From positions 1 to 42,505 of the forward strand of contig JADHWC010000011.1 of NCBI GenBank assembly GCA_016783665.1: a DNA stretch of 42,505 nucleotides, read 5' to 3'. The notes under the pieces are model-generated. The model ran no database searches, had not been told where the DNA came from, and worked only from the letters and a program-made list of their open reading frames with translations. Of this stretch, positions 18,561 through 38,832 are shown one piece after another. A program made the translations under genes and the position numbers. The DNA comes from Fidelibacterota bacterium. Lineage in GTDB: Bacteria > Fidelibacterota > UBA2242. The number at the start of each line of letters is the position of its first letter. The stretch's first letter is position 1.

Positions 18561-19952
18561 ATGTATTCTACTGGTGATTATCGGCATATCTGGGATAACT
18601 GTCTGCAACTGATTAAGGGGCGTATTCCGCCGCAGACATACAGCACTTGGTTTCAGCCCATAAAGGCAATTTCTATTACGGACGGCTCTCTCTTTCTTCA
18701 GGTCCCGAACAAATTCTTCTATGATTGGCTAGATAGTCATTATAAAGAGACAATTCAGGGTTCTCTGCGAGAAGTGACGGGGAATGGTCTATCAATAAAA
18801 TACACGGTTTTGCTTACGGATACACCTTCAGAAGAAAAAGAAAAGATAATAGAAACGATTCCTGAGAATTATAATCGCAGCATCAACCTGAAGTCCGCGC
18901 AATCAGGTATGATCGAACGCGGTACCCGCATCAATGAGAACTATGTTTTTGAAAATTTTGTAGAAGGAAACAGCAACCAGTTTGCAAGGGCAGCGTCCAT
19001 TGCGGTAGCAAATAATCCCGGCAAGACACCATTTAACCCGCTTGTAATATATGGGGGCACGGGGCTGGGAAAGACCCATCTGTTACAGGCTATAGGAAAT
19101 AACGCATTATCGACCGGACATGCAAATAAAGTTGTTTATGTATCAAGCGATACGTTTACACTGGACTTTATCGCAGCTATTCAGAAAAATAAAACAACGG
19201 ATTTCTCCAGGTATTACCGCAGCGTGGACATGCTTTTATTGGACGACATCCAGTTTTTTCAAAACAAAGAACAGACCCAGGAACAATTTTTTCACATTTT
19301 CAATGATCTATATCAACACAACAGGCAAATTGTACTGACGACCGATCGTCCTCCGATGGAATTGAAAGGTCTTCAAGATAGATTGTTGTCCCGCTTCCAA
19401 TCAAGTTTGACGGTAGACATTCAACCACCTGACCTTGAGACGCGAATTGCAATTTTAAATAAAAAAGCATCATCTGACGGTCTGGATCTACCCTATGATG
19501 TTATAGAATTTATAGCCCAGAACGTAAAGTCCAATGTTCGCGAGCTGGAAGGTTTTCTCATACGCATGTTGGCATATTCCTCGCTAATGCAGGTTGATAT
19601 AGAATTAGACTTGGCGCGAAAAGTGTTCAGAGAAACCGGCGCTGTTGAGAAAAAAGGTATCGTCTCAATTGAAGACATTCAAAAAATCGTTGGCACATCT
19701 TATTCCATTAACCTGGATTCACTGGTTGGAAAATCGAGGACGAAGGAAGTTGCCGAAGCGCGGATGGTAGCAATGTATCTTGCCAGAGAACATACGAATC
19801 TGTCTTTGAAAACAATTGGAATATATTTCGGTGGACGCGATCACTCTACGGTTGTTCATGCATGCAAATGTGTTGAAGAGAGAAAAACAGACAACGAGCA
19901 ATTTTCAGCCAGAGTGATTTCTATACAGGAAAAAGTGAGAAACGCTATATAG
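18561..19952 (+). CDS. dnaA: chromosomal replication initiator protein DnaA
   Basis: AAA+ initiator that binds oriC and melts it; 463 residues. Domain I is recognisable in WDNCLQLIKGRIPPQTYSTW, domain II is a short linker, domain III has Walker A GGTGLGKTHLLQAIGN, Walker B MLLLDDIQFF and the LSRFQSSLTVDIQPPDLETR region, and domain IV has the DNA-binding signature GGRDHSTVVHACK. The ATG at 18561 follows AGGTG at a long distance of about 11 bases. The gene is transcribed rightward, away from rpmH and from dnaN, so it stands alone instead of heading a dnaA-dnaN operon. DnaA boxes just upstream suggest autoregulation. Confidence 0.98.
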   Translation: MYSTGDYRHIWDNCLQLIKGRIPPQTYSTWFQPIKAISITDGSLFLQVPNKFFYDWLDSHYKETIQGSLREVTGNGLSIKYTVLLTDTPSEEKEKIIETIPENYNRSINLKSAQSGMIERGTRINENYVFENFVEGNSNQFARAASIAVANNPGKTPFNPLVIYGGTGLGKTHLLQAIGNNALSTGHANKVVYVSSDTFTLDFIAAIQKNKTTDFSRYYRSVDMLLLDDIQFFQNKEQTQEQFFHIFNDLYQHNRQIVLTTDRPPMELKGLQDRLLSRFQSSLTVDIQPPDLETRIAILNKKASSDGLDLPYDVIEFIAQNVKSNVRELEGFLIRMLAYSSLMQVDIELDLARKVFRETGAVEKKGIVSIEDIQKIVGTSYSINLDSLVGKSRTKEVAEARMVAMYLAREHTNLSLKTIGIYFGGRDHSTVVHACKCVEERKTDNEQFSARVISIQEKVRNAI

Positions 19953-35931: not shown

Positions 35932-37314
35932 TTGCCAAAATATATTGTAGAACCGTTTCGGATTAAGGTCGTCGAACCTATAAAAAAAACCACCCGAGAA
36001 GAGCGGGCTCAAATATTGGAAACCGCCGGAAATAACGTATTTAATATACCTTCCGAGAAAGTATATATTGATTTATTAACGGACAGCGGCACCGGCGCCA
36101 TGAGTGACAATCAATGGGCGGGGATGCAATTGGGCGATGAATCCTATGCTCATTGCCGGAACTGGTTTCATTTTGAAGAAACGGTGAAGAATATTACCGG
36201 CTTGAAACATGTGATTCCGACTCACCAGGGGCGGGTTGCCGAAAATCTTCTTTTTTCAACAATTCTAAAAAAGGAAATGGTTGTTCCCAATAATAATCAT
36301 TTTGATACGACCCGCGCTAATATTCTGGCGAATGGCGGAATTCCACTGGATCTGGTTATTGAGGAGGGAAAAGATCCGGACGTCTATCATCCGTTTAAAG
36401 GCAATGTGAATGTTGAAAAACTTAAGGACACGATTTATAAATACGAACGGGCAAGAATTCCGCTGGTTATGATTACCGTCACCAATAATTCCGGCGGCGG
36501 ACAGCCGGTTTCCATGGAAAATATTCGCAGTGTTCGGGCGCTATGTGATAAGTACGGAATTCCACTGTTTTTTGATGCGTGCCGGTTTGCGGAGAATGCC
36601 TATTTCATTAAAATGAGAGAAGAGAAATACAGGGATAAGGAGATTTCGGAAATAGTGCGGGAAATGTTTTCCTATGTTGACGGGTGCACGATGAGCGCAA
36701 AAAAGGATGCGCTTGTCAATATCGGCGGATTTATTGCTTTAAACGATGATTCGCTGGCTGAAAAACTGAAAGAGAAGCTGATCCTGATAGAAGGATATTT
36801 TACTTATGGCGGATTGGCGGGGCGCGATCTGGAAGCCGTTGCGCGGGGGCTGGTTGAAGCTCAGGATGAAGATTACCTGGCGTACCGCGTGGGACAGGCA
36901 AAGTACCTTGGTGATTGTTTAGAAGAGGCGGGCGTTCCTTGTTTAAAACCCACCGGCGGTCATGCAGTATATGTTAATGCGCGGAAATTCCTCGATCATA
37001 TTCCTCAATGTGAGTTTCCCGGACAGGCTCTTGTGGTCAACCTGTATCTTCATTCCGGGATTCGCTCTACTGAAATCGGGAGCTATATGTTTGCTCATAA
37101 AGACCCCAAAACCGGAGAGATAAATTATCCCGATATGGACCTGGTGCGTCTTGCTCTGCCGAGAAGAGTCTATACGGGCGGACACCTGGATTATGTTGCG
37201 GAATCGTTGAAAGAATTATATGCAATCCGATACAGCATGAAGGGCATGCGCATTGTTGAGCATGGAGAATCGGCATTGCGCCACTTTGTGGCGCGACTTG
37301 AGTTTATTGAATAG
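35932..37314 (+). CDS. tnaA: tryptophanase / tyrosine phenol-lyase family PLP lyase, tryptophanase-like active site
   Basis: A 460-residue beta-eliminating lyase, cleaving an aromatic amino acid to an indole or phenol, pyruvate and ammonia. Fold landmarks: EPFRIKVVEPIK, DLLTDSGTGAMSDNQWAGM, IPTHQGRVAEN, the PLP lysine in CTMSAKKDALVNIGGF (Lys258) and GGLAGRDLEAVA. Much of the sequence looks like tyrosine phenol-lyase, but three specificity positions are those of tryptophanase: Asp125 (FDTT; TPL has Thr), Ile382 (TEIG; TPL has the substrate-binding Arg381) and His451 (LRHF; TPL has Phe). So I favour tryptophanase. TTG start with AGGAG nine bases upstream. No aromatic amino acid permease is adjacent. 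The last base of its stop codon is the left edge of the cassette-like insertion. Confidence 0.85.
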   Translation: MPKYIVEPFRIKVVEPIKKTTREERAQILETAGNNVFNIPSEKVYIDLLTDSGTGAMSDNQWAGMQLGDESYAHCRNWFHFEETVKNITGLKHVIPTHQGRVAENLLFSTILKKEMVVPNNNHFDTTRANILANGGIPLDLVIEEGKDPDVYHPFKGNVNVEKLKDTIYKYERARIPLVMITVTNNSGGGQPVSMENIRSVRALCDKYGIPLFFDACRFAENAYFIKMREEKYRDKEISEIVREMFSYVDGCTMSAKKDALVNIGGFIALNDDSLAEKLKEKLILIEGYFTYGGLAGRDLEAVARGLVEAQDEDYLAYRVGQAKYLGDCLEEAGVPCLKPTGGHAVYVNARKFLDHIPQCEFPGQALVVNLYLHSGIRSTEIGSYMFAHKDPKTGEINYPDMDLVRLALPRRVYTGGHLDYVAESLKELYAIRYSMKGMRIVEHGESALRHFVARLEFIE

Positions 37315-37334
37315 TTAGACGAAATGGCCGATTT
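37314..37334. repeat. left arm of imperfect inverted repeat, cassette left end
   Basis: Starts at the last base of the tnaA stop codon with GTTAGAC, a match to the integron core box GTTRRRY, and continues GAAATGGCCGATTT. It pairs with the arm at 37961-37981 at 18 of 21 positions. Confidence 0.75.
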
Positions 37335-37352
37335 AATAGGTGGTGCTGAAAA

Positions 37353-37955
37353 ATGAAGAATCTCATAAGAAACTTAGGTCACGAAAGTCTTTGGGTAAGA
37401 ACAGGGTATGCTTTCATGTTTTTCTTTGCATTCCTATCTCTTGCCTAAGCTTTCGGCTTTCTCTTTCTACCAGAAGGCATTATGAAGGAGTTCCCCTCAC
37501 CCTCTCTTATGGTATTCGAAGAAAAAGAATCTTTCCTTTCTTCCTTCATTAAGACCTTAGTTTACAATTTGTTCGTAATGGGTATGATAGTAGGGATAAA
37601 TCATTTTAGAGTTCGCTCACTCACTCTTGGTTATTTCCCACTATACGCCAATACTGTAATGATAGCGCTATTTGCCGGGACAAACTCTTTTAGTGGGGGT
37701 GTATCAGCCTACACCTTGGAAGGGTGGCTATTGTTCTTGCAAATAGGATTCCTGGAGTTTTCAGCTTACATTTTTGCATGTGTTGCTACGGTAAATTTAG
37801 CCATGTTTCATGCTGGGAGATGGCGTGGTGAAAAGTTCAAGAAAACACGAGATTTTAAGCAAATTAAGCTATCAAAACACGAACTTCTACTTTTATTGGT
37901 AACTTTTGGACTATTAACTGTTGCAGCACTTAACGAGTGGAGGCATATTAGTTGA
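37353..37955 (+). pseudogene. SpoIIM-like membrane protein gene with in-frame stop
   Basis: ATG at 37353 follows AGGTGG by nine bases and opens MKNLIRNLGHESLWVRTGYA, then a membrane segment interrupted by TAA at 37446-37448 (codon 32). The frame continues without further stops to 37955; the track lists only its 157-residue second part from ATG 37482. If read through, the product has 200 residues and about five membrane segments. FIKTLVYNLFVMGMIVGI, TLEGWLLFLQIGFLEFSAYI and the ensuing FACVATVNLA resemble the SpoIIM/DUF95 family. ATG 37482 has a modest AGAAGG six bases... upstream, so restart of translation is possible, which could give a shorter but functional protein. It fills the cassette nearly end to end. 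Confidence 0.6.
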
Positions 37956-37960
37956 TGAAG

Positions 37961-37981
37961 AAATCGGCCACATCGCCTAAC
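37961..37981. repeat. right arm of imperfect inverted repeat, outer arm of attC
   Basis: Begins AAATCGGCCACATC and ends GCCTAAC (37975-37981), a match to the RYYYAAC box of attC sites and complementary to the left cassette end with three mismatches in 21. Confidence 0.75.
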
Positions 37982-38056
37982 AGAGCGTATCTGACTACGT
38001 GCCTTTGGCACTTCGCCCAAATCCAGCCTAACGGCTGGCCTTCAGATACGATCGGG
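37975..38056. other. attC-like recombination site
   Basis: Starts with the RYYYAAC box GCCTAAC, a four-base spacer, then CGTATCTGA (37986-37994), which pairs perfectly with TCAGATACG (38042-38050), then a five-base spacer and G at 38056. The one-base-larger spacer on the 3' side mimics the asymmetry of real attC arms. Between the arms are two further small hairpins, GTGCC-TTT-GGCAC (37999-38011) and CCAGCC-TAAC-GGCTGG (38023-38038), as in long attC terminal structures. The 3' GTTRRRY box is missing here but is supplied by the left cassette end. Confidence 0.62.
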
Positions 38057-38077
38057 ACGATAACGTCATAAAACTTT

Positions 38078-38182
38078 GACAAGTTTAAAGACTTAGCTGA
38101 AAAAGTTTTCCCGATTTTAGCCGGGTTAGTTATAATTGTTGTTGCGTTGTCGGCAGGTGAATTGTTAATAATTCCTAGCTAA
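38078..38182 (+). pseudogene. possible C-terminal remnant of a small membrane protein
   Basis: A frame of 34 codons ending at TAA 38180-38182 reads DKFKDLAEKVFPILAGLVII and a further hydrophobic run VVALSAGELLIIPS. It has a stop at 38069-38071 upstream and no start codon between, so it looks like the tail of a broken gene with one membrane helix. It lies in DNA that would directly follow tnaA if the cassette were removed. Chance open frame is possible. Confidence 0.3.
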
Positions 38183-38391: not shown

Positions 38392-38832
38392 ATGACGAAC
38401 ACCCGGCTGTATTTTGCCTATGCCGATAATATGAACGAAGAGATTGTTCGTGAGATATGTCCAGGAGTTTCTTTCGAAGGGGTTGCTGAACTCAAAAACC
38501 AGCGCCTTACATTCAACTCACAGGGCAAAATTACTATTACAGAAGATGGCACCCACTCGATATGGGGCATTGTGTGGTGTCTTTCGACGAGAGACATTCA
38601 CCTGCTTGACGAGAAAGAAGTTGAAACTCTCGGCACATTTAAGAAAGTCAGCAAACACGTCAATTTTTTAGATGGGCGCAGCGCCGAGGCGTTTTTATAT
38701 ATTACCGATGTCGGCGATCGACCGTCGTATAGCCAATCACTCATTGATTTTATTATTGAACAAGCACAATATTGGTCGCTGCCCACTTCCTACATCGGTT
38801 TCTTGGAAGAGCTTCAGGGACAATACAGCTGA
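38392..38832 (+). CDS. gamma-glutamylcyclotransferase-like (AIG2/GGCT fold) protein
   Basis: A 146-residue protein of the GGCT-like superfamily. The N-terminal nucleotide/substrate loop, commonly YFAYGSNM, reads YFAYADNMNEEIV, and the conserved WGIVWCLSTRDIHLLDEKEV matches the GVLY.LS..DL..LD..E segment with the usual acidic residues. Members cleave gamma-glutamyl compounds to 5-oxoproline; the GSN to ADN change in the loop makes the activity here uncertain. ATG at 38392 follows GGAGGGGGTGG. It is convergent with the large secreted protein gene across only five bases. Confidence 0.72.
   Translation: MTNTRLYFAYADNMNEEIVREICPGVSFEGVAELKNQRLTFNSQGKITITEDGTHSIWGIVWCLSTRDIHLLDEKEVETLGTFKKVSKHVNFLDGRSAEAFLYITDVGDRPSYSQSLIDFIIEQAQYWSLPTSYIGFLEELQGQYS

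Follow-up and report, generated by a model that had tools for sequence, protein, structure and literature searches.

Secondary-site insertions of integron cassettes have been described for aadB in RSF1010 (Recchia and Hall 1995) and by Loot et al. (2024), both as cited in PMC10127599 and PMC12901181. Genome-wide insertion at attG sites is cited in PMC12901181, PMC12444791 and PMC11023631, and IntI1 is reported to cut G^A in the triplet GAT at secondary sites (PMC10127599). Archaea have been found to share cassettes and attC types with bacteria, in most cases with no integrase next to them (Ghaly et al. 2022, PMC9668308). Here we describe a locus in a Fidelibacterota bacterium, found in a 42.5 kb stretch of DNA that we analyzed as a whole (the window). 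The segment 37315-38059 of the forward strand is an authentic integron gene cassette at a chromosomal site other than attI. The reading that we favor, with a probability of roughly 0.7, is that a single cassette circle was inserted by an integron integrase (IntI) at a GAT site behind a tryptophanase gene. Secondary-site insertion is a known process; the example is new, its gene is a cross-domain one and the structure of its ends is interesting.

In the terms of IntegronFinder, the locus resembles integron cassettes, CALINs and lone attC sites in its single sense gene, its left GTTRRRY box, its right attC of the order R''-L''-L'-R' with a variable terminal structure, and the lack of an adjoining integrase. 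It differs from them in having one attC at a housekeeping locus, a degenerate right R' box and a gene broken by a TAA codon. It shares with the attG-type insertions (aadB in RSF1010, Loot et al.), as these are cited in the sources above, precise insertion at a G^WT-like point, with neither attI nor attC as the target. In contrast to those, it is natural, chromosomal, from an uncultured lineage and not resistance-selected, and its GAT is deduced rather than observed in an empty site. The locus thus provides a case from nature, in a chromosome and mapped to the base, of a cassette that has moved out of the integron to an ordinary site.

The attC site (R''-L''-variable terminal structure-L'; 37975-38059, forward strand) has paired R''/R' and L''/L' boxes around a variable terminal structure, the R' box being supplied in the circle by the left end of the cassette. 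By sequence and fold, the L'' arm CGTATCTGA lies at 37986-37994 and the L' arm TCAGATACG at 38042-38050 of the same strand, and the bottom strand of the site folds with the L stem. Spacers of unequal length had been noted earlier; the asymmetry holds, but the lengths are 4 and 8 in the free circle instead of four and five bases. A covariance model built from nine sites, the window site included (R1), matches 37969-38070 with 80 bits. A second model, built from 44 other attC-like array sites with the window site excluded (R2), gives one match in the 42.5 kb window, at the same positions (44.4 bits, E = 3e-7), which places the site in this attC family and bears out the earlier note in its assignment of an attC. 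R2 detects no second attC in the window, so the two or more close sites of a CALIN are absent. The two models are not fully independent, since R1 seeded the 44-site collection. Over the 44 sites, 19 of the 23 stem pairs have changed on both sides (194 cells; 0/500 shuffles), a figure somewhat inflated because the alignment was fitted to the structure; in slid controls the pairing collapses, with about a quarter to two fifths of the cells pairing. A strict home-made search for R boxes first missed the window site because R' boxes are degenerate; a relaxed search gave 21 matches, most of them a single site counted on either strand, compared with 4 in shuffles. The fold by itself is modest (z = -3.2; 2/200 shuffles), as might be seen in a chance hairpin beside an ordinary host gene. 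That explanation is nevertheless practically negligible: it is already refuted by the R2 match and by boundaries common to the archaeal copies, and the patchy distribution of the gene also speaks against it.

The cassette is 745 bp long and is present once in the 2.38 Mb genome, a whole-genome search having found no second copy. It starts at the TT of a GTTRRRY box, GTTAGAC (37314-37320, forward strand), the left core box, which is identified from the sequence and the archaeal copies and is the R' box of the free circle. The crossover G^TT falls after G37314, the final base of the stop codon TAG of a tryptophanase/beta-eliminating lyase gene (35932-37314, forward strand, 460 aa; Pfam Beta_elim_lyase, E = 1.4e-80), which ends at the left junction. 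This edge is independently supported by copies in other hosts: the local DNA alignment with the copy of Ca. Methanoxibalbensis begins at 37314, and that with a Thermoproteota copy begins at 37310, within 4 bases of the junction, and runs on into the attC. On the right, the crossover ACG^TTA of complete attC sites in relatives and archaea aligns to ACG38059^ATA in the window; the cassette therefore spans 37315-38059, and the implied empty site reads GAATAG^ATAACG. The earlier note had put the right edge at 38056 and the empty site at GAATAG^ACGATAACG, and both shift with the crossover. The elements that it listed (GTTAGAC, GCCTAAC at 37975-37981 and the two L arms) are all present in the sequence, and against the independent copies in other hosts the boundaries are clean, as its test required. 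The right junction G^ATAACG (38059-38065, forward strand), located by the R2 alignment and by likeness to the relative G015, forms the host side of the putative GAT secondary (attG-type) site. The junctions G37314^TT and G38059^AT thus fit the G^TT/G^WT pattern of an attG-type insertion with no other change in the host.

In the favored reading, the event ran as follows. The attC of the free circle would have consisted of the right end joined to the left GTTAGAC box, and it would have been recombined as a folded bottom strand by the integron integrase. The target would have been, in place of attI, an ordinary chromosomal GAT in duplex DNA that overlaps the stop codon of the tryptophanase gene (TAG^ATAACG). 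The uninterrupted joint before insertion would have read TAG-ATAACGTCATAAAAC, and recombination would have taken place at G^A. This would have split the R' box, so that GTTAGAC stayed on the left and the attC on the right was left with a degenerate R' (GATAACG). Lying downstream of tryptophanase in sense orientation, the cassette gene could be transcribed by read-through.

The host genome has a candidate for the enzyme. Searching the full genome for intI, as the earlier note had proposed, yields one integron integrase, on contig C86 (327 aa; TIGR02249, 484 bits versus a cut-off of 265). Nothing in the window matches the integron integrase family, in keeping with the earlier remark that none is near, nor is there a complete integron (intI and attI beside the cassette). 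We infer that the C86 integrase or a related one was the agent, that a single GAT was the target and that the gene is expressed by read-through. An array beside this intI was considered; the contig ends 180 bases after the gene, and no attC was seen there. A divergent, truncated second integron-integrase fragment lies just upstream of the intact gene (L036:9247-9564). Elsewhere the genome has at least three more attC-like sites, on contigs C19 (67-78 bits), C37 (two) and, weakly, C113. One of the sites on C37 is followed by an apparent RelE/HigB-HigA toxin-antitoxin pair (L070:1650-2505). Toxin-antitoxin pairs are typical cargo of cassette arrays.

How does the insertion point look in close relatives? 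The site lies in a housekeeping-like region with dnaA at 18561-19952, about 17-19 kb away, in agreement with the approximately 19 kb from oriC estimated before. To the right, an AIG2/gamma-glutamyl-cyclotransferase-like host gene (38392-38832, forward strand) is the syntenic neighbor in relatives. Among the close relatives compared, no intact empty site was found. In G002, whose tryptophanase orthologue has 92% DNA identity, other foreign DNA occupies the same point: directly behind the tryptophanase stop, this congener has a SIR2-like gene that is interrupted by a transposase-like gene (L030:1199-5378, contig C487). The G015 contig stops 2 bases short of the junction. In another congener, G001, the same intergenic region contains an attC-like structure of another kind, along with a methyltransferase-like gene (L033:1406-1538, contig C136). 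The region downstream of tryptophanase is plastic and possibly a hot spot for cassettes.

The transposon-interrupted gene in G002 also raises the question of whether homologous recombination, or another mobile element carrying the cassette, brought it here in place of IntI acting at the site. We consider this quite improbable, since neither a transposase nor a terminal repeat nor additional flanking sequence accompanies the cassette, and both edges match the IntI crossover positions to the base. The presence of a single copy and the lack of a transposase likewise dispose of the multicopy transposase element that the earlier note had named as the competing element type.

A more serious alternative, yet still an unlikely one, is that the locus is the remnant of a small array (CALIN) of at least two cassettes, of which the right-hand one was deleted and its GTT mutated to GAT, leaving one attC. 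On this view the integron cassette would still lie outside an integron, but it would not have been inserted as one circle. The G001 site in the same intergenic region is compatible with such a history, as is the right flank, where G002 homology begins only at about 38180 and the stretch 38072-38179 holds 36 open codons, membrane-like in sequence, that resemble a protein tail with no start. On the other hand, G015 shares host-like AAYGTYATAAAAC from 38062 (12/2000 shuffles reach the alignment) and shares sequence again from about 38160, so the DNA beyond the right edge looks native; a search of 245 genomes found no credible relative of the 36 codons (best other E = 0.11); and the window has no second attC. 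For its lack of relatives we rejected the stretch as a second cassette fragment; by comparison with G015 it is probably host spacer. Insertion of one circle at a secondary site, as the earlier note had predicted, is thus well supported by the attC match, the integrase in the genome and the shared boundaries, while it is not proven against the loss of a former small array.

The cassette contains a single gene, read toward attC in the sense direction (37353-37955, forward strand, 200 codons), for a SpoIIM-like membrane protein. The single sense gene described earlier is therefore present and correctly oriented, but it is interrupted by an in-frame TAA at codon 32 (37446-37448), where both intact homologues have Tyr. 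After the stop, an open reading frame of 157 aa continues in the same frame (37482-37955). Judged from the sequence, the TAA may mark a pseudogene, a shorter protein made from 37482 or an assembly error. The family assignment is a weak one: the Pfam SpoIIM match of the archaeal homologue L058 has E = 5.9e-4, under the gathering score. A structure prediction for the cassette protein, made from three sequences, has a pLDDT of 40, too low to be of use.

The gene occurs in 1 of the 245 genomes of its phylum and in none of the other 244. Its closest relative is in Ca. Methanoperedenaceae GB37 (83% amino acid identity), and one is in a WOR-3 bacterium (75%); further relatives are in a Thermoproteota archaeon, a Methanosarcinales archaeon and Ca. 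Methanoxibalbensis. The only relatives found are thus from archaea and from one bacterium of another phylum; none was found on plasmids, phages or viral contigs. This distribution shows the gene to be horizontally acquired. For L058, contamination is unlikely: its contig is 1.9 Mb long, and the genes around it are archaeal (by eye, resembling a translation factor, NMD3 and a RIO kinase). The remaining archaeal copies come from contigs of metagenome-assembled genomes, some of them short. As in Ghaly et al. (2022), cassettes and attC types are shared across domains; here, by comparison, a specific gene (at most 83% amino acid identity) is found in this bacterium, WOR-3 and several archaea, and one site is resolved to the base. 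The gene is thus a further, specific instance in favor of integron cassettes acting as vehicles between domains.

The ends of the cassette have a further property. The left 21 bases (37314-37334, forward strand) are complementary at 18 of 21 positions to the right outer arm (37961-37981, forward strand), which ends in the R'' box GCCTAAC (37975-37981). This is the sole such match in the window on either strand, with a probability of approximately 9e-9 per random pair, and it argues that the two ends belong to one circle. The earlier note had pointed out these 18 matches; the observation is real and not unique, since it recurs in other cassettes of the clade. For 21 other cassettes of the same attC type that lie between consecutive sites, we compared the two ends over the 14 bases outside the R boxes. 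Complementarity is higher within cassettes than in mismatched pairs (permutation p-value = 1.5e-4), and with the window included at least 10 matches are seen in 4/22 own pairs versus 0/462 mismatched pairs. We tentatively propose that cassettes of this clade carry long arms, approximately 14 complementary bases beyond the R boxes, so that the attC of the circle is longer-stemmed and is halved at any insertion; the idea is a speculative one. If true, long arms would set circular cassettes apart from integrated ones, and they would serve as an R-box-independent fingerprint of the partner in the original circle. Their complementarity would offer a way to tell which cassette ends once shared one circle.

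Sites of the same attC type form same-strand arrays by R1 in the relatives G018 (22 sites), G006 (13) and others, and in the archaeon Ca. Methanoxibalbensis, where L062 has an array of five strong sites and one weak one. Of the 61 genomes in the relative set, 19 have an integron integrase that scores over the cut-off. In G055 intI is closely followed by an attC-like site (L090:8573-8686). G018, with its 22 attC matches, has no integrase match at E <= 1e-40; in that genome one attC lies directly behind what by eye are a DNA methyltransferase-like gene and a possible restriction-enzyme gene (L054:1500-3083, contig C19). Several attC sites of the family are preceded by a shared stretch, GAACTCtgcgg...CCTTGC...GGTCATATAACA, with two small hairpins, which appears as an extra conserved outer part. 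It is seen at about 3000-3070 of L038 (reverse complement), in L039, at about 5250-5310 of L069 and at about 4830-4880 of L062.
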